A stretch of DNA of 41,407 nucleotides, taken from NCBI GenBank assembly GCA_947500445.1, contig CANMSB010000038.1:1-41407 (forward strand). Direction: 5' to 3'. The DNA comes from an uncultured Flavobacteriaceae bacterium (GTDB lineage: Bacteria > Bacteroidota > Bacteroidia > Flavobacteriales > Flavobacteriaceae). The notes under the pieces are model-generated. The model did no database searches. It was not told the origin of the DNA and saw nothing but the letters and a program-made list of their open reading frames with translations. The position numbers were made by a program, and so were the translations under genes. Below are positions 1,438-34,799 of the stretch, in pieces (within the stretch, counting starts at the first letter, position 1; every line of letters begins with the position of its first letter).

Positions 1438-1597
1438 ATACCCCTTTAACTTCGAAATAACACTATTAAATCGTTTCTTTTCCAGCTGTTCTTCCTTAAA
1501 AGGCCAGTCCTCAGCCAAGCCGTGGACAAGTTTTTGCATTGAACAACTAAAAAATAATTCCATTTCTATACCTGCCATTTCAAAGCTAAGGTGGTAT
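1438..1597 (-). repeat. Dispersed inverted-repeat element, copy 1 (diverged, 160 bp)
   Basis: This is a diverged member of the family also present at 16543, 21310, 24187 and 34593. In the minus orientation it starts ATACCACCTTAGCTTTGAAA, keeps the TATAGAAATGGAATTATTTT and TTAGTTGTTC blocks and the AAGAACAGCTGGAAAAGAAA block, and ends AAGTTAAAGGGGTAT. Its core between the arms is short (about 30 bp, containing GTCCACGGCTTGGCTGAGGAC). It lies 14 bp upstream of the start of the surface-protein gene. Confidence 0.8.
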
Positions 1598-1925
1598 GAC
1601 GTCATTTTTGCGGTTAGCAGGGTAGGCAAAAATAGGATTATCTGCCTATTTTTATCACAATATCCTCAAAATTGCCTCCTCATCCTGTTAAAAGGACGCT
1701 ATTCCTCGTTAAACGGCGGACCGAATACCGACGGTGAAAAAAAGAAAGGCATTTTTGGCCTCAAAAAGGCACATTTCTATCGCTTTTGAACAAATTAACA
1801 AAAGTTTAGATGCAACGGTTTTTTTATCCCCCCAACTTATATTTTCTTTAACAAAAGGAACGACTGGCCTAGAGCGATTCAATATGCCGGAAATAGCCTT
1901 TCGTTCAAATGGTAAACAGTTATAA
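1598..1925. other. Intergenic region without a supported gene
   Basis: An AT-rich stretch between the inverted-repeat element and the gene at 1926. A short GTG-initiated frame at 1734-1925 has no recognisable motif and is judged spurious. The promoter of the 1926 gene should be here; TATATTTTC near 1849 is only a partial match to TAnnTTTG. Confidence 0.5.
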
Positions 1926-2696
1926 ATGAAAACAACTTCGGTACAATTTACCCTAGCATTATTTTTGATTATTTTATCGGTATCGGCCTTATGGTCGCAA
2001 GAAGATAGGGTGTTGTTGCGGGGACAGGTAATTTATAGGGACGTTAACGTTCCCAATGAAAACGTAATCAACGTAACGGCCGAAACCGCGACCATCACCG
2101 ATGAGGACGGACGATTTGCAATAGCCGTCAAGCGCGATGACCAACTCGCTTTTACCGCGGTCAACTATCAGCTGAGCGTTATTACGATTACTACGGAGAT
2201 TTTGGAAGCGAACCGCCTGGTGGTAGAGGTAAAGGAAAAAGTTACCGAGTTGGACGAGGTAATCGTTACTCCCGAAGACCAAGAGCGTTTTATTGAGATG
2301 AAAAATGACGAGTTTGCGCAGTTTAAAAAGTATGAATATGAGATCGATCGCTCTTCTAAAGTAGAAAATATCGCCCGTTCCCAGTCCGAACGAGGTATGC
2401 AGGACGGTTTGAACTTTGTGAACATCTTTAAGGCCATTGTAAAGGCATCATCCAAAAACAAGGAGGAAAAGAGACCGGAAATAAAATTGAGCAGTGTATT
2501 ACGTGAGGTATATGACGATGAGTTTTTTGTATTGGATCTAAAACTGCCCCAAGATAAGATCGACGGTTTTTTGGTGTATATCGATGCAAAGTCCCCTGCC
2601 CAGTCCTTGCTTAAAAAGGATAATGAGTTTCAGCTCATCGATTTCTTGGTGACCCATAGTAAAACATACTTGGAGGGGTTGAATGCAAAAAATTAA
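1926..2696 (+). CDS. Secreted CarboxypepD_reg-like protein (TonB-receptor N-terminus-like)
   Basis: 256 residues. A signal peptide (about residues 1-25, ending ALWSQ) is followed at about 30-110 by a carboxypeptidase-regulatory-like beta-sandwich: LRGQVIYRDVNVPNENVINV, then TATITDEDGRFAI. It closes with TELDEVIVTP, the linker that in TonB-dependent receptors leads into the plug domain. Here no plug or barrel follows; instead there is a charged helical segment of about 140 residues. It probably sits in the periplasm or at the outer membrane. The gene overlaps the next one, a paralogue, by 14 bp, so the two are very likely co-transcribed and translationally coupled. Such stand-alone proteins are common in Flavobacteriia and their function is not established. 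Confidence 0.75.
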   Translation: MKTTSVQFTLALFLIILSVSALWSQEDRVLLRGQVIYRDVNVPNENVINVTAETATITDEDGRFAIAVKRDDQLAFTAVNYQLSVITITTEILEANRLVVEVKEKVTELDEVIVTPEDQERFIEMKNDEFAQFKKYEYEIDRSSKVENIARSQSERGMQDGLNFVNIFKAIVKASSKNKEEKRPEIKLSSVLREVYDDEFFVLDLKLPQDKIDGFLVYIDAKSPAQSLLKKDNEFQLIDFLVTHSKTYLEGLNAKN

Positions 2697-3453
2697 GGTT
2701 TTTGTTTTCTTGATCTTTTTAGGTCATATGCTCGGGGCACAAACTTTCGAACCCCAAGAATTGAAAGGGCGGGTGTATAGCGTAGATGGTGATGTTGCCG
2801 CTACCCATGTGCTCAACATGACTTCCAAAAAAGCCGCTATTACCGATATCGATGGTTTTTTCTCCATTACGGCCAAATGGAACGATACGGTCGTTTTTTC
2901 TGCGGTGCAATACAAAAAGAAACAGATCGTGATAACGCTCTCCATGCTGGAAAGCAGTTTTTTGGCGGTGCCCTTGGAAGAATCGGTTACCGAACTTGAC
3001 GAGGTGGTGGTAATGCCCTATAATCTTACGGGGGATATGAAACGTGATGCCGATCGCTTAAGGACCGATCCGGTAGTTACCGCCAGTACCCTAGGCCTGC
3101 CGAATGCCTACGTGAAAACGCTTACCCAAAGTGAACGGGCACTGGCCACTGCCAGAGACCCAAGGAGTGTCGACTTTTTGTTCAATGCCCTTTCGGGAAG
3201 GACCAAACGTTTAAAACGGTTGGTCGGTGTAGAAAAAAAGTATGCAAGAACCCAAAGGGTGCGTGCTTTTTACCCGGACTCCGTACTGACATCCGAATTG
3301 AAGATTCCGGCGGAAAAGATTGCCGATTTCATGTACTTCTGTGAAATCGATGCTTCCTTTCAAGCAGCGGTCGATGCTAGGGACCGTTTGCTAATTTGGG
3401 AGCATATGCGAAAACGGAGTATCCTTTATAGAAAGAACAATACTTTGGAATGA
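2683..3453 (+). CDS. Second CarboxypepD_reg-like secreted protein, paralogue of upstream gene
   Basis: 256 residues, the same length as the upstream gene, with the same architecture: signal peptide (FVFLIFLGHMLGAQ), a regulatory-like domain with LKGRVYSVDGDVAATHVLNM and KKAAITDIDGFFSI, the SVTELDEVVVMP linker, and a basic helical C-terminal part rich in Arg and Lys. Its ATG at 2683 lies inside the last codons of the preceding gene (14-bp overlap in another frame). The pair therefore looks like an old tandem duplication. The C-terminal halves have diverged far more than the N-terminal halves. No enzymatic motif is visible. The role is unknown, perhaps structural or in envelope assembly. Confidence 0.75.
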   Translation: MQKIKVFVFLIFLGHMLGAQTFEPQELKGRVYSVDGDVAATHVLNMTSKKAAITDIDGFFSITAKWNDTVVFSAVQYKKKQIVITLSMLESSFLAVPLEESVTELDEVVVMPYNLTGDMKRDADRLRTDPVVTASTLGLPNAYVKTLTQSERALATARDPRSVDFLFNALSGRTKRLKRLVGVEKKYARTQRVRAFYPDSVLTSELKIPAEKIADFMYFCEIDASFQAAVDARDRLLIWEHMRKRSILYRKNNTLE

Positions 3454-3478
3454 GTGTCCGTGATTTGGGGAGTTCCGG

Positions 3479-3511
3479 TTTGAAACACGGCATGCAATTT
3501 GTTTACCTTTG
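3479..3511 (+). promoter_or_regulatory. Bacteroidota-type promoter for the DUF6702 gene
   Basis: TTTG at 3479-3482, 21 bp, then TACCTTTG at 3504-3511, which fits the TTTG-N19..23-TAnnTTTG rule exactly. The expected transcription start is about 3516, at or beside the first ATG of the next gene, so the mRNA would have almost no leader. Confidence 0.65.
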
Positions 3512-3515
3512 ATCA

Positions 3516-4034
3516 ATGGCGAAAATGAAAACCCTATTTCGAAAAATACCGATACTATTAATACTGCCCCTTTTGGCTTTTGGTACCGCGCACAAATTCT
3601 ACCTTAGTGTGACCAATATCGAGTATTCCAAAAAAGATAATGCCCTACAGATAACGACCCGTTTGTTTATTGACGATATGGACCGATTGCTTTTGGAGCG
3701 CTATGGCATTCACGCCAAACTGGGCACGTCAGAAGAATCGGCCGTTGTCCAAGAATACTTGGAAACCTACCTCAGGGAAAAATTCTCGGTAGCAGTAAAC
3801 GGGAACGAAACCCCCTTTGTTTTTTTGGCCGAGCAATATGAAAATGACGTTATGGTCTGTTATTTGGAGGTGAACAAGGTATCCCTCGAGGAGGTAGAAA
3901 CCATTGCCGTTCGCAATGCCGTATTGACCGACCTTTTTGAAGAACAGCAAAACGTTGTCCATTTTAAAATTGCGGGGACAAAAAAGAGTTTTGTGTTGAT
4001 GAAAGAGAATAATAAAGGAATGTTAAACTTATAA
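3516..4034 (+). CDS. DUF6702 family secreted protein
   Basis: 172 residues from the ATG at 3516; the ATG at 3525 (MKTLFRKIPILLIL) is equally plausible and, with the promoter just upstream, would leave a 9-nt leader. A signal peptide (ILLILPLLAFGTA) is followed by HKFYLSVTNIEYSKKDNALQ, the typical opening of DUF6702 proteins (often annotated peptidase E-like). The rest, including ITTRLFIDDMDRLLLE and YLREKFSVAVNG, fits a small periplasmic beta-rich protein. No catalytic residues are evident. It lies 60 bp upstream of the M1 metallopeptidase gene in the same direction; this pairing recurs in flavobacteria, which suggests a shared but unknown envelope role. Confidence 0.8.
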   Translation: MAKMKTLFRKIPILLILPLLAFGTAHKFYLSVTNIEYSKKDNALQITTRLFIDDMDRLLLERYGIHAKLGTSEESAVVQEYLETYLREKFSVAVNGNETPFVFLAEQYENDVMVCYLEVNKVSLEEVETIAVRNAVLTDLFEEQQNVVHFKIAGTKKSFVLMKENNKGMLNL

Positions 4035-4094
4035 CATTCGTTAACAGATTCTTTAAAAAATTTTAATTTCCCATTTCAAAAATTTATACGACAA

Positions 4095-6398
4095 ATGATT
4101 CGATTCAAACAGGTATTGGTATCCTTTTTTATGGTTGCAGGATTTTCGTTGGTCGCCCAGGAGGCGCCGAAGGAAAAGGAATCCGGACATACCAATCAAA
4201 GTAGCTTTAAGCAACTATATGAGGAGTTTTCAACGCCAAACACGTATCGCTCGGCCTCTGGGGCACCGGGTCACGAGTATTATCAACAACAGGCCGATTA
4301 TGTGATGAACGTTGTGCTTGATGATGAGAACCACCGACTGTATGGCGAAGAAACGATTACCTATACCAACAACTCGCCCGACGCTCTGGAATATCTGTGG
4401 GTACAATTGGATCAAAACGTCCGTGCCAAAGATTCCAAGGCCCGTTTGAAAAACGGTGAGGGTATTCCCGCTTTTGAAACTCCCGGTGGCTTTGCGGGCA
4501 AATATATTACGGAGCCCTTTGATGGCGGTTTCGTAATCGACCATGTAAAAGATGCGGCTGGCAACGCCTTACCGTACACCATCAATTTTACCATGATGCG
4601 TATCGACATTCCAAAACCATTAAAAAGTAAGGAGCAGTTGTCCTTTAGCATAAAATGGAACTATAATATTCCCGATCATACCGTAGACAGGGCCCGTTCG
4701 GGCTATGAGGAGTTTACCGATGGCAATAGAGGGTATGTCATCGCCCAATTTTTTCCAAGGATGGCGGTCTATAACGATGTGGAAGGCTGGCAAAACCATC
4801 AGTTTTGGGGCAATGGGGAGTTTGCCCTTACTTTCGGGGACTATGAGGTGAACATTACGGTACCAGCCGATCATGTTTTGGATGCCACCGGTACCTTGCA
4901 GAACCGTAAGGAAGTATTTTCAAAAGAAATGTTGAGCCGTTACGAAAAAGCTAAAAAATCCTATGACAAACCCGTTATCATCGTATCCCAAGCAGAAGCG
5001 GAGGCCGCTGGAAAAGGATTTTCAAAGAAAAAGAAGACCTGGAAGTTTAAGGCAAAAAATGTACGCGACTACGCTTTTGCCAGTTCCAGAAAGTTTATTT
5101 GGGACATGCAGGCCGTAAAGGTCGGCGCCAAGGACGTAATGGCGGTATCGCTCTATCCACCCGAGGGAAACCCCTTATGGGAAGAGTATTCCACAAAGGC
5201 TGTGGCACATACCTTATTGTCCTATTCATCACATACGTTCGATTATCCCTACCCCAAGGCCATATCGGTTCATGCCAAAAACCAAGGTATGGAGTACCCG
5301 ATGATTTGTTGGAACTATGGAAGGCCCAATGAAGACGGGAGCTATTCCGATCGTGTAAAGTACGGGATGATCAGTGTTATTATCCACGAGGTCGGACACA
5401 ACTTTTTTCCAATGATCGTTAACTCCGATGAACGGCAATGGGGTTGGATGGACGAAGGGTTGGACACCTTTATGCAGTACTTGGCGGAACAGGAGTTTGG
5501 TGAAAAATTCCCAAAGGCGATAGCCCCTTATCCAAAATATCCCTCCAGAAGGGGCGACCCGGCCAAGATAGTGCCCTATATGGCCGGTGATCAAAGTACG
5601 ATCGCCCCGATCATGTCCAATCCGGAAAATGTATTTCAATTGGGCCCCAACGCCTACGGAAAACCGGCTACGGCATTGAATATTTTAAGGGAGACCGTTA
5701 TGGGCCGTGAATTGTTCGACCATGCTTTCAAAACCTACTCTAAAAGGTGGATGTTCAAACATCCTACCCCCGAAGATTTTTTCAGGACCATGGAGGACGC
5801 TTCGGCCGTAGATCTCGATTGGTATTGGAGAGGGTGGTTTTACACCACGGATTATGTGGACATAGGGGTTAAGGATATCGAAAAATATTACGTTTCGAAC
5901 CGGCCGACGAAAAAGATGCGCGATTATTTGGCGTCCCGAAACATTACCGAGGCCGATATGCCTCCGATGGTATATCTTGACAATGAAAAGAGCGATGGTT
6001 TTGACGCGAGTTTAAAGGGTAAAAAACCTACGGAAAGTTCCAAATCGTTGCAGGCTTTTCTTATGGATAATTTTGACGCCGCGGAAAGGACAAAATTAAA
6101 GGAGCCCAAGTATTTTTACAAGGTAACTTTTGACAAACCCGGAGGAATACCGATGCCGATCATCGTTTCGTATACCTATGCCGACGGAAGTTCCAAGGAC
6201 ATTACCTACCCCGCTGAAATATGGAGAAAGAACAATAAGGAAATCAGTGTGGTCGTAGCCTCCCAGGAAGAACTTACGGGCATTGTGATCGATCCAAAGG
6301 CCGAGACCGCCGATATTGATCTTACCAACAATACATGGCCCCGAAAAGAGGTTCCTTCGGAATTTGACAAGGTCAAGCAAAGTGTTAAGGGCAAGTAG
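4095..6398 (+). CDS. M1 family metallopeptidase
   Basis: 767 residues with an N-terminal signal peptide (ending about SLVAQ). The zinc-binding signature is complete: HEVGH with H431 and H435, the catalytic E432, and the third ligand E454 in WGWMDEGLDTF, the HExxH-x18-E spacing of gluzincins. The substrate-recognition motif upstream is GMEYP (398-402) in place of the classic GAMEN, as is usual in this secreted Bacteroidota branch. The N-terminal part (about 60-300) corresponds to the M1 beta-saddle domain. It probably trims peptides in the periplasm or at the surface; the substrate is unknown. A clear terminator follows at 6421, so transcription ends here. Confidence 0.92.
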   Translation: MIRFKQVLVSFFMVAGFSLVAQEAPKEKESGHTNQSSFKQLYEEFSTPNTYRSASGAPGHEYYQQQADYVMNVVLDDENHRLYGEETITYTNNSPDALEYLWVQLDQNVRAKDSKARLKNGEGIPAFETPGGFAGKYITEPFDGGFVIDHVKDAAGNALPYTINFTMMRIDIPKPLKSKEQLSFSIKWNYNIPDHTVDRARSGYEEFTDGNRGYVIAQFFPRMAVYNDVEGWQNHQFWGNGEFALTFGDYEVNITVPADHVLDATGTLQNRKEVFSKEMLSRYEKAKKSYDKPVIIVSQAEAEAAGKGFSKKKKTWKFKAKNVRDYAFASSRKFIWDMQAVKVGAKDVMAVSLYPPEGNPLWEEYSTKAVAHTLLSYSSHTFDYPYPKAISVHAKNQGMEYPMICWNYGRPNEDGSYSDRVKYGMISVIIHEVGHNFFPMIVNSDERQWGWMDEGLDTFMQYLAEQEFGEKFPKAIAPYPKYPSRRGDPAKIVPYMAGDQSTIAPIMSNPENVFQLGPNAYGKPATALNILRETVMGRELFDHAFKTYSKRWMFKHPTPEDFFRTMEDASAVDLDWYWRGWFYTTDYVDIGVKDIEKYYVSNRPTKKMRDYLASRNITEADMPPMVYLDNEKSDGFDASLKGKKPTESSKSLQAFLMDNFDAAERTKLKEPKYFYKVTFDKPGGIPMPIIVSYTYADGSSKDITYPAEIWRKNNKEISVVVASQEELTGIVIDPKAETADIDLTNNTWPRKEVPSEFDKVKQSVKGK

Positions 6399-6420
6399 TG
6401 CCCTAGGCAATATCAAGATG

Positions 6421-6449
6421 AAGGCCCCGTTTAAATCGGGGCTTTTTTA
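6421..6449 (+). terminator. Rho-independent terminator after the M1 peptidase
   Basis: GCCCCG (6424-6429) pairs with CGGGGC (6437-6442) across a 7-nt loop and is followed by a run of T. It lies 22 bp after the stop codon. Confidence 0.85.
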
Positions 6450-6469
6450 TTTCTATTGCCGAACTTGAT

Positions 6470-6477
6470 TATATTTG
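6470..6477 (+). promoter_or_regulatory. TAnnTTTG -7 box 5 nt before the tatA start
   Basis: TATATTTG matches the Bacteroidota -7 consensus exactly. The predicted transcription start (about 6482) coincides with the ATG, implying a leaderless message. No convincing -33 TTG at the right distance was found. Confidence 0.5.
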
Positions 6478-6481
6478 TAGT

Positions 6482-6820
6482 ATGTTTTTGATTTCTTTCT
6501 TATTCATTAGTGGCGGTGAAATTTTCTTCATCATGTTTATCGTGGTGATGGTTTTTGGAGCCGATAAAATACCGGGCATCGCCAGGGGACTGGGAAAAGG
6601 AATGCGGCAGTTGAAAGATGCTACCGAAGATATTAAACAGGAAATACAGCGCAGTGCCGACAAACAGGGAATAGATACCAGTTTTGTATCGGATATCAAA
6701 AAAGACATCGACGAGGTGAAGGAAAACCTTGGTACCGGTATCGCCGAAGATTTGAAAAAAGGGGTCGACCCCATAAAAAAGGGTCTCGACGAGGTCGGGG
6801 GAACCATAAAAAGAAGCTGA
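6482..6820 (+). CDS. tatA: Twin-arginine translocase TatA/TatB-type subunit
   Basis: 112 residues. A single N-terminal membrane helix (about 3-25) is followed by the Tat hinge F25-G26 and the amphipathic helix (ADKIPGIARGLGKGMRQLKD), the hallmark of the TatA/B/E family. The C-terminal tail (50-112) is charged, with repeated K/E-rich segments (DIKKDIDEVKENL, DLKKGVDPIKKGLDEV). This makes the protein longer than a minimal TatA and somewhat TatB-like; the two cannot be separated from sequence alone. It would export folded proteins with TatC, which is not in the window. The next gene starts 7 bp downstream, so the two are probably co-transcribed. Confidence 0.85.
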   Translation: MFLISFLFISGGEIFFIMFIVVMVFGADKIPGIARGLGKGMRQLKDATEDIKQEIQRSADKQGIDTSFVSDIKKDIDEVKENLGTGIAEDLKKGVDPIKKGLDEVGGTIKRS

Positions 6821-6827
6821 TCGATCT

Positions 6828-7388
6828 ATGCTGGACAAGCTACAGCAATGGGACAGGGATACCTTTATCTACTTAAATGGGTTGGGCATTGAACGTTACG
6901 ACGCGTTTTGGTCGGTCGTCACCAAATTTGGGACCTGGACACCGTTATTTGTACTCATCGTTTTTTTACTTTTCTGGAAAAGACCGATCAAGAAATCCCT
7001 TTGGGACCTTACCTTTTTTTTATTGATGATCGTTACGGTAGGGTATGCTATCGATACCGTGAAAAAAGGTGTTGGAAGGTTACGTCCCAACAATGAGGAA
7101 ACGATCAACCAGATGATCCGTGTTTTACACACTCCACATGATTTTAGTTTTTTTTCTGGCCACGCCGCCTCTTCGTTTAGTATTGCCACCATGGCCATAC
7201 TGCTGTTAAGGGGGCGTTACAAATGGATCTATCTGGTATTGTTATGGCCCATACTTTTTTCGTTCAGCCGTATTTACCTGGGGGTACACTATCCTCTTGA
7301 TATTTTGGTCGGGATGATGGTAGGCATATGCTTTGCGTTTCTGTTCAAATACCTAAGTGTCCGTATCACCTTACCCTACTTACGGTAA
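6828..7388 (+). CDS. PAP2 superfamily membrane phosphatase
   Basis: 186 residues, five to six hydrophobic helices. All three PAP2 phosphatase motifs are present: K79-x6-RP (KKGVGRLRP), FFSGH with S110-G111-H112, and SRIYLGVHYPLD with R148, H154 and D158. Members remove phosphate from lipid pyrophosphates or phosphatidic acid at the outer face of the inner membrane, for example undecaprenyl pyrophosphate recycling or lipid A modification; the substrate here is not deducible. It follows the Tat gene by 7 bp. Its last 23 bp overlap the 3' end of the convergent methyltransferase gene, leaving no room for a separate terminator. Confidence 0.9.
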   Translation: MLDKLQQWDRDTFIYLNGLGIERYDAFWSVVTKFGTWTPLFVLIVFLLFWKRPIKKSLWDLTFFLLMIVTVGYAIDTVKKGVGRLRPNNEETINQMIRVLHTPHDFSFFSGHAASSFSIATMAILLLRGRYKWIYLVLLWPILFSFSRIYLGVHYPLDILVGMMVGICFAFLFKYLSVRITLPYLR

Positions 7389-8007: not shown

Positions 8008-8402
8008 TGGAGCTGTGTTTTTAGTTTTTTTGGTAATTCGGACTAGGGTTCCACAGCATAATGGTGCCTATGCTCGCAAAGCAAGGGAACGACGGTCCGG
8101 CTTTCAGTCGGTACAAAAATAGCCAATATCTTTACAGGGACGATAAGGTTTTGCACTTCCCGTGGCGCTTCCCAATTGCGAATTAAAATGAGTCATGCCG
8201 ACTTGTTCATTTTCTATTTTCTTTTCTTGTAAGCATTTCACGTAGCTATGGCTATTCAAAACCCTATAGCGTAAGTAAGTGAAAAAGCAACTTCGGTATG
8301 CTATGGCATATTTTAGTTAACAATTGGGGTTAAAAAACATCTTATGGAAATGCGACTGACGAACCCAGGGGGCCAAACGGATGTTCTTCCCTAACGAAGT
8401 TG
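8008..8402. other. Intergenic region between divergent genes
   Basis: No coding frame with recognisable content. A weak imperfect hairpin (GCTATGG ... CCTATAGC) lies near 8246-8275. The region must hold the promoters for the methyltransferase (leftward) and kynureninase (rightward); only the latter has a recognisable box. Confidence 0.4.
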
Positions 8403-8410
8403 TATTTTTG
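8403..8410 (+). promoter_or_regulatory. TAnnTTTG -7 box for kynureninase
   Basis: TATTTTTG matches the consensus exactly and lies 15 bp upstream of the preferred ATG at 8426, predicting a leader of about 11 nt. This supports 8426 over an upstream in-frame ATG at 8381. No clear -33 TTG. Confidence 0.5.
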
Positions 8411-8425
8411 ATAAAAAACCGAGCT

Positions 8426-16379: not shown

Positions 16380-16397
16380 TTAAGCCGTTATTGATAA

Positions 16398-16434
16398 AAA
16401 AAGTCCTTCACAAACCTAATGTGAAGGACTTTTT
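16398..16434. terminator. Strong terminator after clpP
   Basis: A perfect 15-bp stem (AAAAAGTCCTTCACA / TGTGAAGGACTTTTT) around a 7-nt loop. A-tract and T-tract make it usable in both directions. It starts 19 bp after the clpP stop. Confidence 0.92.
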
Positions 16435-16542
16435 GGATATATATAGGCGCCGAAGCGGAAGATTTATAACGTGTGCCGTTGTTCCCCTTATATACGGTCT
16501 TACGTGTTGAATGGTTTTGGGCGTCACGTTAAAAAAATGATA

Positions 16543-16726
16543 ATACCATTTTAACTTTGAAATCGCGCGTATAGAAATTGAATTATTTTTTAGTTGTTCG
16601 AGGCAAAAGCCTGTCCCCGGCTTGACCGGGGATCTAAGCATAGCCTTAGCTACGGTTCTATTTTTTAACGAAGAACAGCTGAAAAAGAAACGGTTTATTA
16701 GTGCTATTTCAAAGCTAAAATGGTAT
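16543..16726 (+). repeat. Dispersed inverted-repeat element, copy 2 (184 bp)
   Basis: Terminal inverted repeats ATACCATTTTAACTTTGAAA (left) and TTTCAAAGCTAAAATGGTAT (right). The inner arms also pair imperfectly (TTTTTAGTTGTTC versus GAACAGCTGAAAAA). The core has a CCCCGG-cttga-CCGGGG hairpin and a TAGCcttaGCTA hairpin. It lies between clpP and kmo and encodes no protein of its own. Confidence 0.9.
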
Positions 16727-16824
16727 AAGAAACGGTTTTTTTATTCGAAACGAAACCAAGGGCACCGATACAATGGCCCCGCTTTTTTGGTATCTTTACC
16801 TTTATTCTTGGTTTCCACGACAAC

Positions 16825-21042: not shown

Positions 21043-21309
21043 TAGCGATACTACCTTTCAAGATCCTTGCGACCTTCGGAATTGCCATGAGATTGTACAT
21101 TTTAACATAGGAAACGGCAGGAAGTTATAACCGAGCCCCACGACCCCTTTCGGTGGCAGGGGAATGACTATTGCATCAACTGGGGCGAACATTCGATAGG
21201 ACATGGATTTTCTAAAATCCCATAAATCCATAAAAAGCTACCGTTTAACGAAGGGAAGCGGCCAGTGTTGTATCCGATAAACATATATCGTAGTTTTAGA
21301 GGATAACTA
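21043..21309. other. Spacer between the two OmpA-like genes
   Basis: About 270 bp without a coding frame or recognisable terminator, ending where inverted-repeat copy 3 begins. Confidence 0.4.
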
Positions 21310-21493
21310 ACACCATTTTAACTTTGAAATCGCGCGTATAGAAATTGAATTATTTTTTAGTTGTTCGAGGCAAAAAGCCTGTCCCCGGCTTGACCGGGGA
21401 TCTAAGCATAGCCTTAGCTACGGTTATATTTTTTAACGAAGAACAGCCGAAAAAGAAACGATTTATTAGTGCTATTTCAAAGTTAAAATGGTA
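21310..21493 (+). repeat. Dispersed inverted-repeat element, copy 3 (184 bp)
   Basis: About 95% identical to copy 2 over its length, same orientation. It begins ACACCATTTTAACTTTGAAA and ends TTTCAAAGTTAAAATGGTAC, so both outermost tips carry a matching change (ACACC / GGTAC differ from ATACC / GGTAT). It ends 13 bp before the ATG of the second OmpA-like gene. A frame through its right arm stays open into that gene. Confidence 0.9.
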
Positions 21494-21506
21494 CAACCAT
21501 TCGGTA

Positions 21507-22643
21507 ATGCTTGTTTCGATCGGCATAAAGCGATTGCTCTTTTTGTGCATGGGAATTTTTCCATTGCTCCTACGTGCACAGAACCTGGTCGCGAATCCCA
21601 GTTTTGAAAGCTATGCCAAATGCCCTGAAAGACTTGGACTTTTCGATACCAATGTCGCTTCTTGGTCATGCCCTACATCCGGTACCACCGATTATTTTAA
21701 TGCTTGTAGTTCCGCTATGGGCACTCCCGAAAACTTTAAGGGCAGGCAACCTGCCGATTTTGGTGATGGGTATACCGGTATGTACGTGTTTGCCCCGGAC
21801 GATTATCGGGAATATATACAGGTGGCGCTTACCGAACCATTACAGGCGGGAAAAAAATATCAGGTTTCTTTTTACGTAAGCCTAGCCGAAAAATCGGATT
21901 CCGCAATAAAGGAGTTCGGAGTGTTGTTCTCCAATTACGAGTTAAAGATTCCCACGCAAAAAAATCTTTCCAAGAAAAAACGGTATCAGTTACAGGGACA
22001 TCAATACACCTATTTGGAAATCGGATACACCAATTTTTTTTCCGATACCAAAGATTGGATTTTGGTCAATTCCCAATTTACCGCCAAGGGAAACGAGCGT
22101 TTTATGTGTATCGGTAATTTTAAGGCCAACGCCCGTACACGAATGTTCAAGACCAAAAAAAATGCCAAGCAAGGGGCATATTATTATATCGATATGGTCG
22201 CCGTAAGCGGTGTTGAAAAAATGGAGGTGGCAAAACCCCTTGTAGCGATTGCCAATGGAAAAGAAACGAGTAACATCGAACTTGATCGAAGTTACATCTT
22301 TAAAAATGTACTGTTCGAATTTGATCGGTCGTCCCTTTTAAAATCGGCCAAAAATGAACTCGAAAAGGTATACACCTTATTGCGCTCCAATGCCAATCTG
22401 AAAATTGCTATTGACGGACATACCGATAATGTAGGGTCGGTAGCGTACAATCAACAACTTTCCCAGCTACGGGCGAAAGCCGTAGCGAACCACCTGCAGG
22501 AATTGGGGGTGCCAAAGGAACGGATCGTTTGGCAGGGCCATGGCGGCAATTCGCCTATTACGGAAAACGAAACCGAACAGGGCCGGCAACAAAATAGAAG
22601 GGTAGAGTTTACCATTAGCAAAAGTGTCGTTGCTCCCGATTAA
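21507..22643 (+). CDS. OmpA family protein with N-terminal NPSFE domain (paralogue 2)
   Basis: 378 residues from ATG 21507, chosen because the signal peptide (MLVSIGIKRLLFLCMGIFPLLLRAQ) begins there. The frame stays open upstream through the inverted-repeat element to a TTG at 21345, but those 54 codons are element sequence and not likely translated. Same architecture as the preceding paralogue: NLVANPSFESYAKCPE, GTTDYFNACSSAMGTP, FYVSLAEKSDSAIKEFGVLFS, then an OmpA domain with LLKSAKNELEKVY, IDGHTDNVGSVAYNQQLSQL and RQQNRRVEF. It probably binds peptidoglycan. With the element ending 13 bp upstream, its promoter must lie within or beyond the element. Confidence 0.88.
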   Translation: MLVSIGIKRLLFLCMGIFPLLLRAQNLVANPSFESYAKCPERLGLFDTNVASWSCPTSGTTDYFNACSSAMGTPENFKGRQPADFGDGYTGMYVFAPDDYREYIQVALTEPLQAGKKYQVSFYVSLAEKSDSAIKEFGVLFSNYELKIPTQKNLSKKKRYQLQGHQYTYLEIGYTNFFSDTKDWILVNSQFTAKGNERFMCIGNFKANARTRMFKTKKNAKQGAYYYIDMVAVSGVEKMEVAKPLVAIANGKETSNIELDRSYIFKNVLFEFDRSSLLKSAKNELEKVYTLLRSNANLKIAIDGHTDNVGSVAYNQQLSQLRAKAVANHLQELGVPKERIVWQGHGGNSPITENETEQGRQQNRRVEFTISKSVVAPD

Positions 22644-24164: not shown

Positions 24165-24186
24165 CGGTGGTGCGAATGGTCCGCTA

Positions 24187-24348
24187 ATACCATTTTAACT
24201 TTGAAATCGTGCGTATAGAAATTGAATTATCTTTTAGTTGTTCGAGGCAAAAAATCTAAGCATAGCCGTAGCTACGGTTATATTTTTTAACGAAGAACAG
24301 CTGAAAAAGAAACGATTTATTAGTGCTATTTCAAAGTTAAAATGGTAT
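24187..24348 (+). repeat. Dispersed inverted-repeat element, copy 4 (162 bp, short core)
   Basis: Same arms and orientation as copies 2 and 3, but the CCCCGG-CCGGGG hairpin module of the core is missing, so the arm sequence GAGGCAAAA runs directly into ATCTAAGCATAGCCGTAGC. It shows that the core is modular. Confidence 0.9.
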
Positions 24349-24616
24349 AATTTCCAATTTCACACGATTTTATTTCTACCGTTCGGTTTTGGCAGTATTT
24401 TTGAACAAAGTCAGAAACGGAATGCGCAATGCTGCATTGTGTGCAAGAAAGCAACGCCTAAAGCTAAAGTTCCTGAAAAGCGATATCTTCAGTAGGGAAC
24501 GCGTCCCAACTTTTTTTCGAAAACCGGACAAGATGGCTTTGGCAAGGTAATGAAGCGTTTTCCGTTTGCATGGCTCCGGATGTTTCGGGGCTACTGAAGT
24601 TTAAAATGTTGAAATT
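24349..24616. other. Spacer with no supported feature
   Basis: About 270 bp of mixed composition. No gene, hairpin or promoter box stands out. Confidence 0.4.
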
Positions 24617-26735: not shown

Positions 26736-26779
26736 GTTCGACAAAACGATTTCAGGTCGTTGTGATACCATTTCTGGTA

Positions 26780-27319: not shown

Positions 27320-27584
27320 ATTGTGTTTTTGTTTTTGTGCCTGAGTCGTTTCAGGTTTGTGGTTCAAAACTAGTTAACAGTGCTTTCAAATTCTTTTAAA
27401 AGGTCGTTAAAATTACACCACCTTACAGAATCACCGTTTTAAATGCTTTTTGGTATTCCTAAATTTTAATATGATCTGATATTGATGTAAAAAGCATTAA
27501 ATTATAAGTAAAAGCAGAATTTAAGTTTTATATACAAACATTAAGGGTCATATTTGTATAGAAATTGATATAACATTATTAGAT

Positions 27585-29255
27585 ATGTGTGGAATTGTTT
27601 GTGCCTTTGATGTAAAGGAAAGTACCGAGACATTGAGGCCTCAATTATTGGAAATGTCGAAAAAGATAAGACACCGTGGCCCCGATTGGAGCGGTATTTA
27701 TGCAGGAGATAAAGCTATTTTGGCCCATGAACGGCTGGCCATTGTAGACCCGGTTTCTGGAAAGCAGCCCCTATTGGGGCCTGAAGGAAAACTGATACTT
27801 GCGGCAAACGGTGAAATTTATAACCATAGGGAACTGCGAAAACAGTTCGAAGGATCTTATGAATTCAAGACCGAGTCGGATTGTGAAGTGATCTTGGCCA
27901 TGTACCAGGAGAAGGGACCTGGTTTTATAGACGAGCTTAACGGTATCTTCGGTTTTGCCATTTACGATTCCGAAAAGGACGAATATTTTATTGCCCGTGA
28001 CCATATGGGAATCATACCCCTATATATTGGATGGGACCAAAACGGTACCTTTTATGTGGCTTCCGAGCTAAAGGCATTGGAGGGGACCTGTACAAAAATT
28101 GAACTATTTCCGCCCGGACACTATTTACACAGCAAGGACGGTACATTTACAAAGTGGTACTCAAGAGATTGGATGGACTATGATGCGGTAAAGGAAAATG
28201 AGACCAGTATCCATGCGGTAAAGGAAGCTTTGGAGGCTGCAGTGCACCGGCAGTTAATGTCTGATGTTCCGTATGGAGTACTGCTCTCTGGCGGTTTGGA
28301 TTCCTCCGTAACTTCCGCTATCGCTAAAAAGTACGCACAAAAACGAATCGAATCCGATGATACCAAGGAGGCATGGTGGCCGCAGTTGCACTCGTTCTCC
28401 GTAGGTTTGGAAGGTTCTCCCGATCTGGCTGCGGCCCGAAAGGTGGCCGACCATATCGGAACGGTACATCACGAGATCAAGTTTACCATTCAAGAAGGAT
28501 TGGATGCCATAAAAGATGTGATCTACAATCTGGAAACCTATGATATTACCACGATCCGTGCATCGACACCGATGTATTTAATGGCGCGGGTCATCAAATC
28601 GATGGGGATTAAAATGGTGCTTTCCGGAGAAGGTGCGGACGAACTTTTTGGAGGATACCTATATTTCCACAAAGCGCCCAGTCCAAAGGATTTTCATGAG
28701 GAAACCGTTCGTAAACTGGACAAGCTGCATATGTACGACTGCCTTCGTGCCAACAAGTCCCTAGCTGCTTGGGGTATTGAAGGACGTGTACCGTTTTTGG
28801 ACAAGGAGTTTATGGATGTGGCCATGCGGATCAATCCAAAAGATAAGATGATCAATGGGGAACGTATGGAAAAATGGGTAGTGCGTAAAGCCTTTGAGGA
28901 TATGTTGCCGGAAAGCGTCGCTTGGCGCCAAAAGGAGCAATTTTCCGATGGTGTAGGGTACAGTTGGATCGACACCCTAAAGGAAGTTGTGGACAAGGAA
29001 GTGAGCGACGAACAATTGGCCAACGCCCGTTTTCGGTTTCCGCTTCAGACCCCGACCAATAAAGAAGAATTTTACTATCGTTCCATTTTCGAATCACATT
29101 TCCCTAGTGATGCGGCCGCGATGTCGGTGCCTCAGGAGCCTTCCGTGGCCTGTAGTACGAAAATCGCCCTGGAATGGGACGAGGCATTTAAAAATATGAA
29201 CGATCCTTCTGGGAGGGCCGTTGCAAAAGTACACGAAGATGCTTACGAAAATTAG
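27585..29255 (+). CDS. asnB: Asparagine synthase (glutamine-hydrolysing)
   Basis: 556 residues. An N-terminal class II glutamine amidotransferase domain starts with the nucleophile C2 (MCGIVCAFD) and has RHRGPDWSG, HERLAIVDP and ANGEIYNH; a C-terminal synthetase domain carries the ATP pyrophosphatase loop SGGLDS (235-240). The signature SGEGADELFGGYLYF and the closing VAWRQKEQFSDGVGYSWID confirm the AsnB type. It converts aspartate, ATP and glutamine to asparagine. The leader holds a near-consensus -7 box (CATATTTG, 27549-27556). A terminator follows 58 bp downstream, so it is likely a single-gene transcript. Confidence 0.96.
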   Translation: MCGIVCAFDVKESTETLRPQLLEMSKKIRHRGPDWSGIYAGDKAILAHERLAIVDPVSGKQPLLGPEGKLILAANGEIYNHRELRKQFEGSYEFKTESDCEVILAMYQEKGPGFIDELNGIFGFAIYDSEKDEYFIARDHMGIIPLYIGWDQNGTFYVASELKALEGTCTKIELFPPGHYLHSKDGTFTKWYSRDWMDYDAVKENETSIHAVKEALEAAVHRQLMSDVPYGVLLSGGLDSSVTSAIAKKYAQKRIESDDTKEAWWPQLHSFSVGLEGSPDLAAARKVADHIGTVHHEIKFTIQEGLDAIKDVIYNLETYDITTIRASTPMYLMARVIKSMGIKMVLSGEGADELFGGYLYFHKAPSPKDFHEETVRKLDKLHMYDCLRANKSLAAWGIEGRVPFLDKEFMDVAMRINPKDKMINGERMEKWVVRKAFEDMLPESVAWRQKEQFSDGVGYSWIDTLKEVVDKEVSDEQLANARFRFPLQTPTNKEEFYYRSIFESHFPSDAAAMSVPQEPSVACSTKIALEWDEAFKNMNDPSGRAVAKVHEDAYEN

Positions 29256-29312
29256 GCGTTGGGCATAAACGAAAATTCTGTTTCATTCAGTTTTTATTTT
29301 TATTAGTCAATC

Positions 29313-29340
29313 GACCCCGGCAATTTGTCGGGGTCTTTTT
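29313..29340 (+). terminator. Rho-independent terminator of asnB
   Basis: GACCCCG (29313-29319) pairs with CGGGGTC (29329-29335), followed by T5. Confidence 0.88.
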
Positions 29341-31665
<2,325 letters not shown>

Positions 31666-31689
31666 CAAAGCGTACTTTCACAACAATAA

Positions 31690-31720
31690 TTCGTCCGCTA
31701 CCTAGCGGACGAACTATTTT
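31690..31720 (+). terminator. Hairpin after gyrB
   Basis: A perfect 11-bp stem TTCGTCCGCTA / TAGCGGACGAA with a CC loop is followed by CTATTTTAG, a weak T-tract. It may terminate partially, with some read-through into the gene at 31751. Confidence 0.6.
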
Positions 31721-31750
31721 AGGGCCATATACAAACCCTAAAGTTTAAGA

Positions 31751-32515
31751 ATGAAAGTAAAATTAGTAGCAACGGCATTGTTCATGACCGCAACCATGTG
31801 TTTTGGACAAGAAGATTTAAAAGAACGGGAAAAACAGGCGGCCTTCGATCCTGCATACAGTTCATATTCCAGAAAAAAACCAGCTTATATCACCCTAAAG
31901 GACGGAACCAAAATAGAAGGGGATATAAAAGATGTGGATCGAAAAAAAGGACAGATAGAGCGCCTGAAAATTATTGAGAACGGGAAGAAAAAGGTCAAAA
32001 TCGAAGCGACCGAAATAGCAGATCTGTACATGGCACCTTCCGGTTTCGATCAGTTCAACAAACAGGCGACCTATTTCAACGATGCTACCAAATGGGGCAA
32101 GTCCGATGCTTCAAAGCACATTAGCAAGGGATATACCATGTATACCAATCAAATGGTTTCTTTGAAGAACAAGAAAAAACCAACGGAATATTTGATGCAG
32201 GTAATCAATCCGAAGTATAGTCAAAAAATTGAGGTGTATTCCGATCCTTGGGCAAAACAGACCGCGAGCATCGGTGTTGGCTCCTTGAAGTTGGCCGGAG
32301 GAATCGCCAAGAGCTATTACATTAAAAAAGGAGACGAAAAAGTGCTTTGGTTGACCAAAAAGGATTTTGACGAGCATTTTGAATCGCTGTTCATGGACAA
32401 CGAAAAGTTTAAAGCGAAATACGCCGACCATAAATTCAAATGGAGTCTTTTGGGTGTGTATGTTCTAGACTATACCGAGTTCAGCATGGAAACGGAAACG
32501 GTCGAATCCAAATAG
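31751..32515 (+). CDS. Secreted protein of unknown function downstream of gyrB
   Basis: 254 residues. Signal peptide (MKVKLVATALFMTATMCFGQ) followed by a lysine-rich domain. The first part has AYITLKDGTKIEGDIKDVDR and LKIIENGKKKVKIEATEIAD, which reads like a small SH3-like beta-barrel. The second part (about 100-254: KHISKGYTMYTNQMVSLK, YSQKIEVYSDPWAKQ, GGIAKSYYIKKGDEKVLWL, KKDFDEHFESLF) is not recognised. Similar proteins appear in flavobacteria without known function. It may be read through from gyrB, 85 bp upstream, across an imperfect terminator. It ends at a bidirectional terminator. Confidence 0.75.
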   Translation: MKVKLVATALFMTATMCFGQEDLKEREKQAAFDPAYSSYSRKKPAYITLKDGTKIEGDIKDVDRKKGQIERLKIIENGKKKVKIEATEIADLYMAPSGFDQFNKQATYFNDATKWGKSDASKHISKGYTMYTNQMVSLKNKKKPTEYLMQVINPKYSQKIEVYSDPWAKQTASIGVGSLKLAGGIAKSYYIKKGDEKVLWLTKKDFDEHFESLFMDNEKFKAKYADHKFKWSLLGVYVLDYTEFSMETETVESK

Positions 32516-32641
32516 TAATACCGTTTCCGATGTTAAATTACCCTTTAAAAATTACTCTTTTTCGCCTACCCAAAAAAATCCCTGTTTTTTATTTGCGCAA
32601 TTTAACACCGAAAACAGTATAAAAAGTTTAAACGAGTTCAT

Positions 32642-32675
32642 AAAAAAACCCTGACAGTTTTGTCAGGGTTTTTTT
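32642..32675. terminator. Bidirectional terminator between convergent genes
   Basis: AAAAAAACCCTGACA pairs with TGTCAGGGTTTTTTT around a GTTT loop. The A- and T-tracts on either side serve the gene ending at 32515 and the leftward gene ending at 32703. Confidence 0.93.
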
Positions 32676-32702
32676 GGTGTATTTAAGAGTGTTTAATAAA
32701 AA

Positions 32703-33077
32703 TCAGTTTCTGATGGCAACGATGGTTCCTTGGACATCTTTTAATATTTCTTCGCCCTTGTCCGATTGTTGCAGGGTCACTTTCTGTTCCGGAAGGTCGG
32801 TACCGGGATAGGAGATGGTATAAGTGCCTTGATCCTCGGACCATTTGAAATCGGTGCGTAGGGTCTCCTGTGAATTTATTTCGTGGTTGTACCGGCCTAA
32901 ATAGGCATCGTTAAAGGTCCATTTTTGAAGTACTTTTTGTTTGTTGGTCTGGCTCGTGGTTTGAATGTCCACCTTTTCCCAGTAACCGATGATCGGGTCG
33001 TCGTTCTCGGGAATTCGGGAACAATTGCTCGCCAGTATGATGCCAAGAATGGCAAATAGCGAAAAAATCTTTTTCAT
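32703..33077 (-). CDS. Small lipocalin-like lipoprotein
   Basis: 124 residues. A lipoprotein signal with candidate acylated C19 (LASNC; Asn before the cysteine is unusual) is followed by DDPIIGYWEKVDI, the GxW start typical of lipocalin-like folds. Alternating strands follow (KVLQKWTFNDAYLGRY, RTDFKWSEDQGTYTISY, EQKVTLQQSDKGEEIL). It probably sits in the periplasmic leaflet of an envelope membrane; the ligand is unknown. It has a bidirectional terminator just beyond its stop and a 420-bp upstream region. Confidence 0.75.
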   Translation of the reverse strand: MKKIFSLFAILGIILASNCSRIPENDDPIIGYWEKVDIQTTSQTNKQKVLQKWTFNDAYLGRYNHEINSQETLRTDFKWSEDQGTYTISYPGTDLPEQKVTLQQSDKGEEILKDVQGTIVAIRN

Positions 33078-33449
33078 AATGCAGGTAATTAAGATTCGGG
33101 GTTTCTTATCAACAATAACGGGAGCGCATCCCTTGGTATTGCTAAAATTCGATGTATGACCGCGAATTCGGATTTTCTTCGTTGAATAACACTTTTTAAG
33201 GGTATTCGGCGCATTTCGTCGATGATGGCATGGTGCGTTTCATCGATAAAATCGGACAAAGTGCAGGCAGGATTTCAAGACGGAATTTGGCACGTTTTCG
33301 TTTCCTAATTTTTAAAAACAACTTTTTAACCGTGTTTTTTTAGATAAAAACCAAAGGGCCGATAAAAATTGGGGACATTCGCTCTAGTATTCCGAAAATG
33401 TAATGGGTATTAAAAACCATATCGATGTCCGTATTTAGGTAAGATTCCG
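33078..33449. other. Intergenic region between the lipoprotein and mdh
   Basis: About 370 bp without a gene. The mdh -7 box lies at its right edge. Confidence 0.4.
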
Positions 33450-33457
33450 TAATTTTG
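33450..33457 (+). promoter_or_regulatory. TAnnTTTG -7 box for mdh
   Basis: TAATTTTG, an exact match, predicts a start near 33462 and a leader of about 38 nt to the ATG at 33500. This argues against the TTG at 33455 as the start. No clear -33 TTG. Confidence 0.5.
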
Positions 33458-33499
33458 GAAGCCTTAAAAAATAAACGTTATCATTATAAAAACATATTT

Positions 33500-34426
33500 A
33501 TGAAAGTTACCGTAGTAGGAGCAGGTGCCGTAGGGGCAAGCTGTGCAGAGTATATTGCAATCAAGAATTTCGCATCGGAAGTCGTATTGTTGGACATCAA
33601 AGAGGGTTATGCAGAAGGAAAGGCCATGGATTTGATGCAATGCGCCTCTTTAAATGGTTTTGATACCAAGCTCACAGGGGTTACCAACGACTATTCCAAA
33701 ACAGCGGGAAGCGATATTGCGGTAATCACCTCGGGTATCCCAAGAAAACCGGGTATGACCCGAGAGGAGTTGATCGGGATCAATGCCGGTATCGTCAAAT
33801 CCGTTTCCGCAAGCCTGATCGAACATTCCCCGAACGTCATTCTGATCGTGGTCAGTAATCCAATGGATACCATGACCTATTTGGTACACAAAACGACCAA
33901 TCTTCCCAAACACAAAATAATAGGAATGGGTGGGGCCTTGGACAGCGCCCGGTTCAAGTATCGTTTGGCCCAGGCCTTGGAAGCGCCTATTTCAGATGTC
34001 GATGGTATGGTCATTGGCGGACATAGTGATAAAGGAATGGTTCCGTTGACCTCGCATGCCACCCGCAACAGCATACGGGTATCCGAATTTTTGACAGCCG
34101 AACGTTTGCAACAAGTTGCCGAGGATACGAAGGTCGGAGGTGCTACCCTAACAAAGTTATTGGGTACTAGTGCCTGGTATGCCCCGGGAGCTGCAGTTTC
34201 CGGTTTGGTACAGGCAATTGCCTGTGACCAAAAGAAAATATTTCCGTGTTCTACCTATTTGGAAGGCGAATACGGCTTGGAAGATATTTGTATCGGCGTG
34301 CCCGTAGTGCTCGGAAAAGATGGTATAGAAGCCATTGTCGATGTTCCGTTGAGCGATGCCGAAAAGGCAAAAATGAAAGAGAGTGCCGAAGGTGTTACGA
34401 AAACCAATGGTTTACTGGAATTGTAA
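33500..34426 (+). CDS. mdh: Malate dehydrogenase (NAD-dependent)
   Basis: 308 residues from ATG 33500 (an in-frame TTG at 33455 lies inside the promoter). A TCA-cycle enzyme of the LDH-like MDH type. The Rossmann GxGxxG (G7-G9-G12) is followed by D32 at the end of strand 2, indicating NAD preference. Substrate arginines R82 and R88 lie in IPRKPGMTREEL, which marks malate rather than lactate specificity. N120 is in SNPMD, R151 in ALDSARF, and the D148-H175 relay lies in LDSARF and GGHSDKGM. It has its own promoter and terminator and is therefore monocistronic. Inverted-repeat copy 5 follows. Confidence 0.96.
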   Translation: MKVTVVGAGAVGASCAEYIAIKNFASEVVLLDIKEGYAEGKAMDLMQCASLNGFDTKLTGVTNDYSKTAGSDIAVITSGIPRKPGMTREELIGINAGIVKSVSASLIEHSPNVILIVVSNPMDTMTYLVHKTTNLPKHKIIGMGGALDSARFKYRLAQALEAPISDVDGMVIGGHSDKGMVPLTSHATRNSIRVSEFLTAERLQQVAEDTKVGGATLTKLLGTSAWYAPGAAVSGLVQAIACDQKKIFPCSTYLEGEYGLEDICIGVPVVLGKDGIEAIVDVPLSDAEKAKMKESAEGVTKTNGLLEL

Positions 34427-34472
34427 ACCGAGAGCAGCGATCGGAATACTTTCGTTCGCGAAAGTCAGTTTT

Positions 34473-34511
34473 AAAAGTGCCATTCTTGTTACCAAGAGTG
34501 GCGCTTTTTTT
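34473..34511 (+). terminator. Rho-independent terminator of mdh
   Basis: AAAAGTGCCATTCTTG pairs imperfectly with CAAGAGTGGCGCTTTT (two mismatches) around a TTAC loop, followed by more T. It lies 46 bp after the stop. Confidence 0.85.
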
Positions 34512-34592
34512 GCTGTATACCGATAAAAAGTTCAGGTATCTTCAGCTGTCCTTAAAGCAAACAACACCTGAGATTTAGCCATACCGGTAACA

Positions 34593-34799
34593 ATACCATT
34601 TTAACTTTAAAATAGCCCTAATAAATGGTTTCTTTTTCAGCTGTTCTTCGTTAAAAAGCCTGTCCCCGGCTTGACCGGGGATCTAACCGTAACTAACGCT
34701 ATGCTTGATCCCCAGTCAAGCTGAGGATAAGTTTTTTGCCTTGAACAACTAAAAAATAATTCCATTTCTATACCCGCCATTTCAAAGATAAAATGGTAT
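34593..34799 (-). repeat. Dispersed inverted-repeat element, copy 5 (207 bp, long core)
   Basis: Inverted relative to copies 2-4. The ends are ATACCATTTTAACTTTAAAA and TTTCAAAGATAAAATGGTAT. The core is the longest of the family and holds the CCCCGG-cttga-CCGGGG module plus a second, diverged module (GATCCCCAGTCAAGCTGAGGAT) in opposite order. It ends 14 bp before the -33 box of secDF. Confidence 0.9.

Follow-up and report, generated by a model that had tools for sequence, protein, structure and literature searches.

Short hairpin elements of a flavobacterial genome share an inner core with elements bearing many other types of end

Five similar inverted repeats lie between the genes of an uncultured Flavobacteriaceae bacterium, within a stretch of 41,407 nucleotides that is called the window throughout. 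This locus raises the question of whether such repeats are mobile elements and, if so, which part of them persists. They are best explained, with a probability of roughly 0.7, as MITEs that a DDE-type transposase mobilises in trans and that share an RNA-hairpin core across end classes.

The elements of the window

The five copies located by a preliminary description were all found again, and all align with one another. Terminal inverted repeats (TIRs) of about 21 bp had been claimed; the elements are 158-205 bp long with TIRs of about 20 bp, and a blind inverted-repeat search recovered the TIR pairs of four of the five copies, missing that of the copy at 1438. All are intergenic and both orientations occur; none carries a transposase, for which the copies are too short.

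Element 1 (1436..1599 with flanks, minus strand) has exact limits of 1439-1596 and is flanked by TGA/TGA; its core matches covariance model R1 at 1465-1568 on the minus strand with 46 bits (E 2e-6). Element 2 (16541..16728 with flanks, plus strand; limits 16544-16725) belongs to a 184-bp class, has TAA/TAA flanks and an R1 score of 54.6 bits, and sits between a ClpP-like gene and a gene for an FAD-binding oxidoreductase. Element 3 (21308..21496 with flanks, plus strand; limits 21311-21493) is of the same class, with TAA/CAA flanks and 58.5 bits, and lies immediately upstream of an OmpA-family gene. A mechanically called ORF with a TTG start overlaps this copy; the first ATG of the ORF, at 21507, is outside the element. 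Element 4 (24185..24350 with flanks, plus strand; limits 24188-24347), of a 162-bp class, has perfect 21-bp TIRs and TAA/TAA flanks, and its R1 score of 109.6 bits (E 8e-20) is that of a sequence which is itself among the 48 rows of the model. Its 22-nt apex, AAGCATAGCCGTAGCTACGGTT, was read from the alignment at 24258..24279 on the plus strand. Element 5 (34591..34801 with flanks, minus strand; limits 34594-34798), of a 207-bp class, is flanked by CAA/TAA (TAA in relatives), matches R1 with 26.6 bits (E 0.024), contains an additional GC-rich internal hairpin, and separates a malate dehydrogenase-like gene from secDF.

Each copy had been proposed to fold into a hairpin, and stable RNA folds were computed for two of them, at 16541-16728 (-69.9 kcal/mol, z -8.6) and 34591-34801 (-72.7 kcal/mol, z -10.3), with none of 200 shuffles equally stable in either case. 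Two further features had been overlooked, namely a 24-bp mini-copy, TACCATTTCAAAGTTTGAATGGTA, at 37981-38004 (37978..38007 with flanks; recorded without a strand), which is flanked by TTG/TTA, and a possible decayed relic of the core at 8196..8301 on the minus strand, which is weak (R1 30.4 bits, E 0.0038) and has no clear ends.

Insertion, copy number and transposase

A very abundant genome-wide family had been predicted from the window, and, rather than few or no further copies, the genome holds 291 TIR ends at three or fewer mismatches, against one for a reversed control pattern. The genome is estimated to contain about 100 full elements and up to 88 solitary 24-bp remnants, and many of the copies are close relatives of one another. 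At 30 loci of this genome, the flanks are TAA/TAA in 12 and TTA/TTA in 7, and thus identical in 19. Nor are the repeats vertically fixed, given that at the two comparable orthologous sites, those of elements 2 and 5, the element is absent in related species. All junctions fetched for the two sites (8 of 8 and 7 of 7) lack the element and have a single triplet, which is TAA or TAT, with just one flank of each tested site well conserved right at the junction. With no element and one TAA-like triplet in the relatives, these two copies are genuine insertions that duplicated 3 bp of their target. The elements are also short (under about 500 bp), have TIRs, lack coding capacity and occur in many copies, such that, together with identical TAA or TTA at the own-genome loci and the two empty sites, their description as MITE-like, non-autonomous and mobile is supported.

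The full-length relative with ATACCATTTTA ends and a transposase that had been suggested was not found in the searches run. DDE_Tnp_1 (PF01609) has five matches in the readable contigs of the own genome, none with matching TACC ends, and PF13340 has none there; in 12 other genomes, PF01609 has 27 matches in 8 genomes, none with TACC ends by a general flank search and the typed TIRs. The window TIR class, TACCATTTTAAC, gave no IS-length TIR pair in G143 (32 matches) or G044 (67 matches), among the matches listed for G146, or among the 7 of 17 G007 matches that lie in fetched loci. Besides elements of 161-211 bp and minis of 26 bp, the fetched loci gave pairs of 186, 240, 257 and 491 bp. The TWA duplication expected of PIF/Harbinger-Tourist-like elements is present; that type also demands a DDE_Tnp_4 transposase, and DDE_Tnp_4 (PF13359) has six matches in 3 of 15 genomes, with a model that is also matched by an IS5-family protein. 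The TNA duplication of the window class presumably fits the IS1031 and IS427 groups.

For one other end class, a partner is documented. IS-length pairs of 23 typed TIRs were sought in 265 loci, and true IS pairs came from the GAACTC class (L158, L161-L164); the IS-length pairs in L006, L009, L064 and L228 are not IS and join neighbouring elements. In the class GAANTNNTTTAAACTTTTT, L113 and L023:20-215, the latter from the own genome, have the core enclosed by the ends of the IS5-family IS found in L161-L164. The two elements are flanked by AAT and ATT duplications, and the IS copies by AAT, ATT and ATA, with one copy having none. This class therefore has both the ends and the ANT duplication of an IS5-family IS, as expected of an IS5-derived MITE.

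One core between many ends

Elements mostly of about 160 bp carry the inner 100 bp or so, above all its 22-nt apex (AAGCATAGCCWTAGCTACGGTT), in many members of the Bacteroidota, the apex ranging from Flavobacteriaceae to Saprospiraceae and Bacteroidales. A core query matched 32 of 199 genomes of the family, the own genome included, and 167 had no core match. The exact apex was found at no fewer than 101 loci; among those listed, 95 are by title from Bacteroidota and six from Gammaproteobacteria, where it sits in repeats between other, unrelated arms. Searches for the exact 22-mer in viral contigs, and of plasmids and phages, gave no match. Rfam 15 had no match in the window, and its nine matches in 17 loci at E<=5 all fall under their gathering scores. 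Literature searches on the element family and the apex yielded no description among the matches listed, and a text search with pieces of the motif returned, among the matches listed, unrelated titles.

The TIRs of core-bearing elements form about ten unlike classes, one of which begins GAGACTG, and the outer 25-45 bp differ. Over 91 class pairs, identity is 0.611 in the inner arms (0.452 when shuffled) and 0.492 in the outer arms (0.439 when shuffled). Conservation is thus stronger in the core than at the ends, a finding that goes beyond the preliminary view of the window. Target duplications differ by class as well: of 36 elements chosen as representatives of the end classes, 28 have a direct repeat of 2-4 bp (15 TWA, 2 ANT, 6 TA, 4 CTAG and 1 CTAA) and 8 have none. 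The length of 33 of these 36 elements is 156-164 bp, a constancy that is partly due to the way they were chosen, as the search extended about 95-110 bp from the apex, and elements with inserts were omitted; the 184- and 207-bp classes of the own genome are longer. Some of the loci share a genome, and some are the same places (L033/L243, L114/L192, L127/L197, L032/L116, L022/L102), and the locus-by-locus analysis omitted L245-L265 (21 loci, three of them gammaproteobacterial).

A MITE family is usually recognised by its ends and has an interior that is variable or simply inherited, whereas in the present elements the interior persists, as does the approximate overall length, while ends and target duplication change. 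ERIC, or IRU, is likewise a small, intergenic, mobile, imperfect palindrome with an RNA stem-loop, found in enterobacteria, and an orientation-dependent effect on mRNA stability is reported for Yersinia (PMC2229807). ERIC as described there has a 127-bp consensus, TA at its termini and a 7-bp TIR, in contrast to the length of mostly about 160 bp, the ten or so TIR classes with TWA, ANT, TA, CTAG or CTAA repeats, the host phylum and the conserved apex seen here; the window elements thus differ from ERIC in length and ends. The pneumococcal RUP is a MITE whose TIRs match IS630-Spn1, and the RNA hairpins of the neisserial Correia elements (NEMIS) are proposed RNase III targets; as described, each has a single TIR type and no interior common to many end classes (PMC2229807). 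MITE239, MITE464, MITE700 and BrickBuilt of Porphyromonas gingivalis are likewise MITEs of Bacteroidota and have IS5-family TIRs such as GAGACTGTTGCA, to be compared with the GAGACTG at the start of one end class here; that account describes them by TIRs and internal repeats (PMC4596501).

Strand, structure and competing explanations

Covariation was assessed in 48 sequences over 19 pairs, of which 92.7% are paired (75.2% when shuffled), with a score of 0.453 against 0.154. Pairing between the arms is compensated, and one pair is kept as G-U in 43 of the 48 sequences. One strand is also richer in G-T pairs: 69 elements contain 379 G-T and 154 A-C, where composition alone predicts 192 and 128, and G-T exceeds A-C in 58 of them. 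These strand counts were taken from other analyses because MAFFT, run on whole elements, aligned the outer arms poorly. The core strand is the better folder in 68 of 72 loci (from 80, L165-L244, of which 74 remained after six too near a contig end were removed and 72 were free of N) and in 33 of 34 in another sample (37 loci minus three without the core). The compensated pairing and the one-sided excess of G-T suggest that an RNA is under selection, or else a single DNA strand, given that a single-stranded DNA hairpin would likewise yield a strand bias. Co-direction of element and gene is modest, at about 46 ++ to 19 -- against a baseline of 61 to 46, with 4 of 37 loci dropped from that analysis.

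These observations bear on three other explanations. Were the family an old MITE lineage of the usual kind, its core would be simply inherited, the ends would have diverged with their transposases, and the RNA would be under no selection. Long RNA stem-loops are common for bacterial MITEs, according to the account in PMC2229807, and the close relatedness of many own copies agrees with such a lineage; it is nonetheless unlikely in view of an exact apex shared by Bacteroidota and, with unrelated arms, by Gammaproteobacteria, of a G-T bias beyond composition and of a similar length across end classes. The core might instead act as double-stranded DNA, with the apex serving as a protein-binding site or a bend in the transposition complex and the length set by paired-end geometry. 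The narrow length range of the representatives would follow, and the apex contains CCNTAGCTACGG, which is nearly palindromic as a duplex, but neither the one-strand G-T excess along the arms nor the retained G-U pair would be explained, which makes this rather improbable too.

Single-stranded DNA elements of the REP/REPIN or integron attC type, in which a Y1 or tyrosine recombinase acts on the hairpin strand itself, would account for the better folding of one strand. REP and REPIN, with RAYT, occur in high copy both as solitary palindromes and as long paired forms, which the solitary 24-bp palindromes beside long forms recall, and REP palindromes are spread by RAYT without target duplication. 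Here 3-bp target duplications are present, with matching flanks and single-triplet empty sites, and one class has ends in common with an IS5-family IS; judged on the duplication, the elements fall outside REPIN/RAYT, and an origin of this kind is very unlikely. A terminator reading of the A-run and T-run of the core was dropped, as the two runs form base pairs with one another within the stem. A likeness to domain V of group II introns was dropped too, since an AGC/GUU triad is present but spacing and length differ.

The elements are therefore read here as an RNA hairpin module borne by many trans-mobilised MITEs and putatively working like ERIC. A DDE-type transposase would act in trans, inserting the element at T-N-A triplets and duplicating 3 bp, and each end class would depend on a separate transposase, in most cases from the IS5 superfamily, as documented for one class. 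The core may be retained because of its RNA: in a transcript in the core orientation it would form one long hairpin with the apex as a docking or processing site, and could affect the mRNA in cis, in a similar way to the hairpins of ERIC and NEMIS. More tentatively, a module of nearly constant size, about 160 nt with a 22-nt apex that hardly varies, may have been joined to some ten transposon end types, with the apex docking a conserved cellular RNA-binding partner and the cargo, not the ends, under selection; the apex would then allow host transcripts to tolerate the insertion or to profit from it. If confirmed, the RNA structure would be the persistent unit, outliving any single transposase, and the apex would be a widespread, testable 22-nt RNA motif with a predicted partner.

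The mini-copies of the own genome, counted at one mismatch or fewer, often have matching TTA or TAA flanks, and minis are present in other genera too, as might be expected of independent minimal mobile units. In G044, G143, G146 and the own genome, however, the mini is the TIR of the respective genus with GGTA added, as slippage between AAAT repeats would be expected to produce, and independence is accordingly doubtful. More probably, the mini-copies were left behind when replication slipped across the hairpin, in which case nearly precise excision would occur between the AAAT repeats at its foot.

A core common to several end classes

The core, the inner approximately 100 bp of the element, is older than its ends. 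Blast of a window element within the genus recovered elements with the same middle but other ends, and a 70-nt query from the core had matches in 32 of 199 Flavobacteriaceae genomes (31 of 198 genera, with at most four candidates scored per genome). In 91 pairs of 14 end-class representatives, identity is 61% in the inner arms (apex excluded) versus 45% for shuffled sequence, and 49% versus 44% in the outer 30+30 bases. Two end classes, TACC (that of the window elements) and GAGCC, are present in a single genome, G007. A possible decayed core copy, which lacks clear ends, lies at 8196-8301 on the reverse strand (30.4 bits, E 0.0038 with a covariance model of 48 aligned cores).

The apex, a conserved 22-mer at the hairpin tip, occurs exactly at 101 loci or more, for which our own arithmetic gives a chance expectation of about 0.06 matches in 257 Gb. 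Among the matches listed, 95 are from Bacteroidota and six from Gammaproteobacteria, by title. The former include Flavobacteriaceae, Saprospiraceae, Bacteroidales, Vicingaceae and others, with several loci per genome, and the six gammaproteobacterial loci listed come from two MAGs. The gammaproteobacterial repeats at L169, L198 and L206 align mutually but resemble the Bacteroidota elements in the apex only, such that the link rests on the exact 22-mer; against the covariance model, positions 39-68 align with 27.7 bits (E 0.074). At these three loci the repeat is roughly 300 bp, with the apex in a GC-rich hairpin that adjoins a second inverted repeat. The genes at L206 are presumably obg, a polyprenyl synthase and guanylate kinase. 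Further gammaproteobacterial loci with the exact apex are L247, L248 and L253. In an Aquimarina MAG (L230, L237), the hairpin is interrupted by another short inverted-repeat element with ends AGAGCTTGTTTAAAC.

Base pairing and strand of the core

Selection at the RNA level was examined in the 48 aligned cores, in which 19 pairs are 92.7% standard, versus 75.2% when shuffled. Changes on both sides occur in 12 pairs against a shuffled mean of 10.0, a value reached in 5 of 500 shuffles, and the covariation score of 0.453 falls to at most 0.191 once the partner is slid. Covariation says nothing about the apex hairpin, which hardly varies; in 43 of 48 cores one pair of this hairpin is G-U. Outside the apex, 69 less redundant elements hold 379 G-T and 154 A-C pairs, where composition alone predicts 192 and 128, and G-T exceeds A-C in 58 elements, with the reverse in seven and ties in four. 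In 34 family elements, counted with G-T and A-C treated alike, the outer arms have 131 G-T versus 35 A-C pairs and the inside 73 versus 61. The core strand gives the better fold in 68 of 72 GTDB elements and 33 of 34 family elements. The alternative to the RNA reading, that the core acts as single-stranded DNA, would also give this strand bias; we regard it as less likely.

A role as RNA might also be reflected in the flanking genes. Both run with the core at 14 and both against it at five of 30 loci in this genome, at 12 and five of 33 in the family, and at 22 and nine of 56 GTDB loci with both neighbors. Given a baseline of 61 to 46 at the same GTDB loci, and given that the orientation of genes is linked to that of replication, this co-direction is suggestive only. 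No Rfam family matched in the window, and in 17 loci all nine matches fell below the gathering score.

Its size, TIRs, duplications and copy number place the element among the MITEs, and by analogy it may work like the ERIC/NEMIS type described in PMC2229807. The nearest described relatives, judged by their ends, are the IS5-type MITEs of P. gingivalis (PMC4596501). Unlike these, the element has an RNA-like interior of similar length common to about ten end classes; a literature search whose coverage took in few subscription papers returned no account of such an interior common to many end classes.

Insertion sites, ends and transposases

A 19.6-kb window stretch was compared to 10 genomes of the genus, including its own. 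Two of the five window elements, at 16543 and 34593, sit between stretches matched in relatives, and junctions were fetched from nine relatives, eight for one site and seven for the other. The empty orthologous sites sought by the preliminary description were found: the element is clearly absent from every junction, each of which has a single triplet (TAA in 7/8 and 5/7, TAT in the remainder). Good conservation reaches the triplet from one side only at each site, from the left at 16543 and from the right at 34593, and the left triplet of the 34593 copy is now CAA. The flanking triplets of 30 loci in this genome are TAA/TAA in 12, TTA/TTA in seven and non-identical in 11. From these flanks and the one anchored side, we infer target duplication. 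Tandem copies at L016 and L017 have a common triplet. Beside the secDF-side insertion, 34802-34860 is well conserved in eight relatives, and the element ends just short of it; this stretch resembles a Bacteroidota promoter motif. An inverted repeat at 16384-16448, 3' of a ClpP-like gene, may be that gene's terminator.

For 36 elements without inserts, picked as end-class representatives and delimited by eye no more than about 110 bp from the apex, length is 156-164 bp in 33; the exceptions are L217 (144), L243 (170) and L023 (172). Direct repeats border 28 (15 TWA, six TA, four CTAG, two ANT and one CTAA, where CTAG or TA may belong to the TIR itself), and eight have none.

One end class other than that of the window has its IS. 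In genome G133, an IS of approximately 0.93 kb ends in GAAGTG/GAACTC-ATTTAAACTTTTT, is bordered by ANT repeats in three of four copies and encodes an IS5-family transposase (NF033580). The same ends accompany the core at L113, from another genus, and L023:20-215, from this genome, with direct repeats AAT and ATT. L160 (contig C3:211621-212067 of this genome) is 68% identical to the G133 transposase over residues 51-277; nothing was found for residues 1-50, and it is apparently truncated at the N-terminus. An autonomous element with TACC ends was not found in the readable contigs of this genome (five DDE_Tnp_1 matches, none to PF13340), in 12 other genomes (27 DDE_Tnp_1 matches in eight) or in 15 genomes searched with PF13359 (six matches in three). 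No IS-length pair of TACC ends is present in G143, G044, the listed matches of G146 or seven of the 17 matches of G007.

Copy number, size classes and minis

The repeats at 1438-1597, 16543-16726, 21310-21493, 24187-24348 and 34593-34799 align mutually at the positions first reported for them, and a blind inverted-repeat search independently recovered the TIR pairs of four; two of the five were folded against shuffled sequences, with none of 200 shuffles as stable. The abundance predicted for the family holds across the genome (177 contigs, 5.18 Mb), where 291 sites match the 21-nt TIR with three mismatches or fewer, versus one for a reversed control pattern. With one mismatch allowed, there are 88 matches to the palindromic 26-mer ATACCATTTN8AAATGGTAT, some of them ends of full elements. 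From (291-88)/2, we estimate that full elements number about 100 and minis, or solitary palindromic copies of 24 bp, at most 88.

A mini consists of one TIR plus GGTA. Besides this genome, G044, G143 and G146 have minis, each with its own TIR version, and TTA or TAA flanks both sides of many. Slippage between GAAAT in the left TIR and AAATGG in the right would yield exactly this product. A Tn10-related transposon whose excision via short direct repeats is nearly precise provides a precedent (PMC12524634, citing earlier work).

Size classes of approximately 162, 184 and 207 bp were seen in 40 scored of 204 first-look candidates from this genome. GC-rich short palindromes (for example, GCCTGTCCCCGGCTTGACCGGGGATC) within the hairpin give the 184- and 207-bp classes, as at 16598-16699 and 34620-34741, and elements of other genera (L224, L234, L241, L243) have other GC-rich inserts. 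The TIR pairs at L292 (G146) and L269/L273 (G007), 257 and 491 bp in length, exceed the usual classes.
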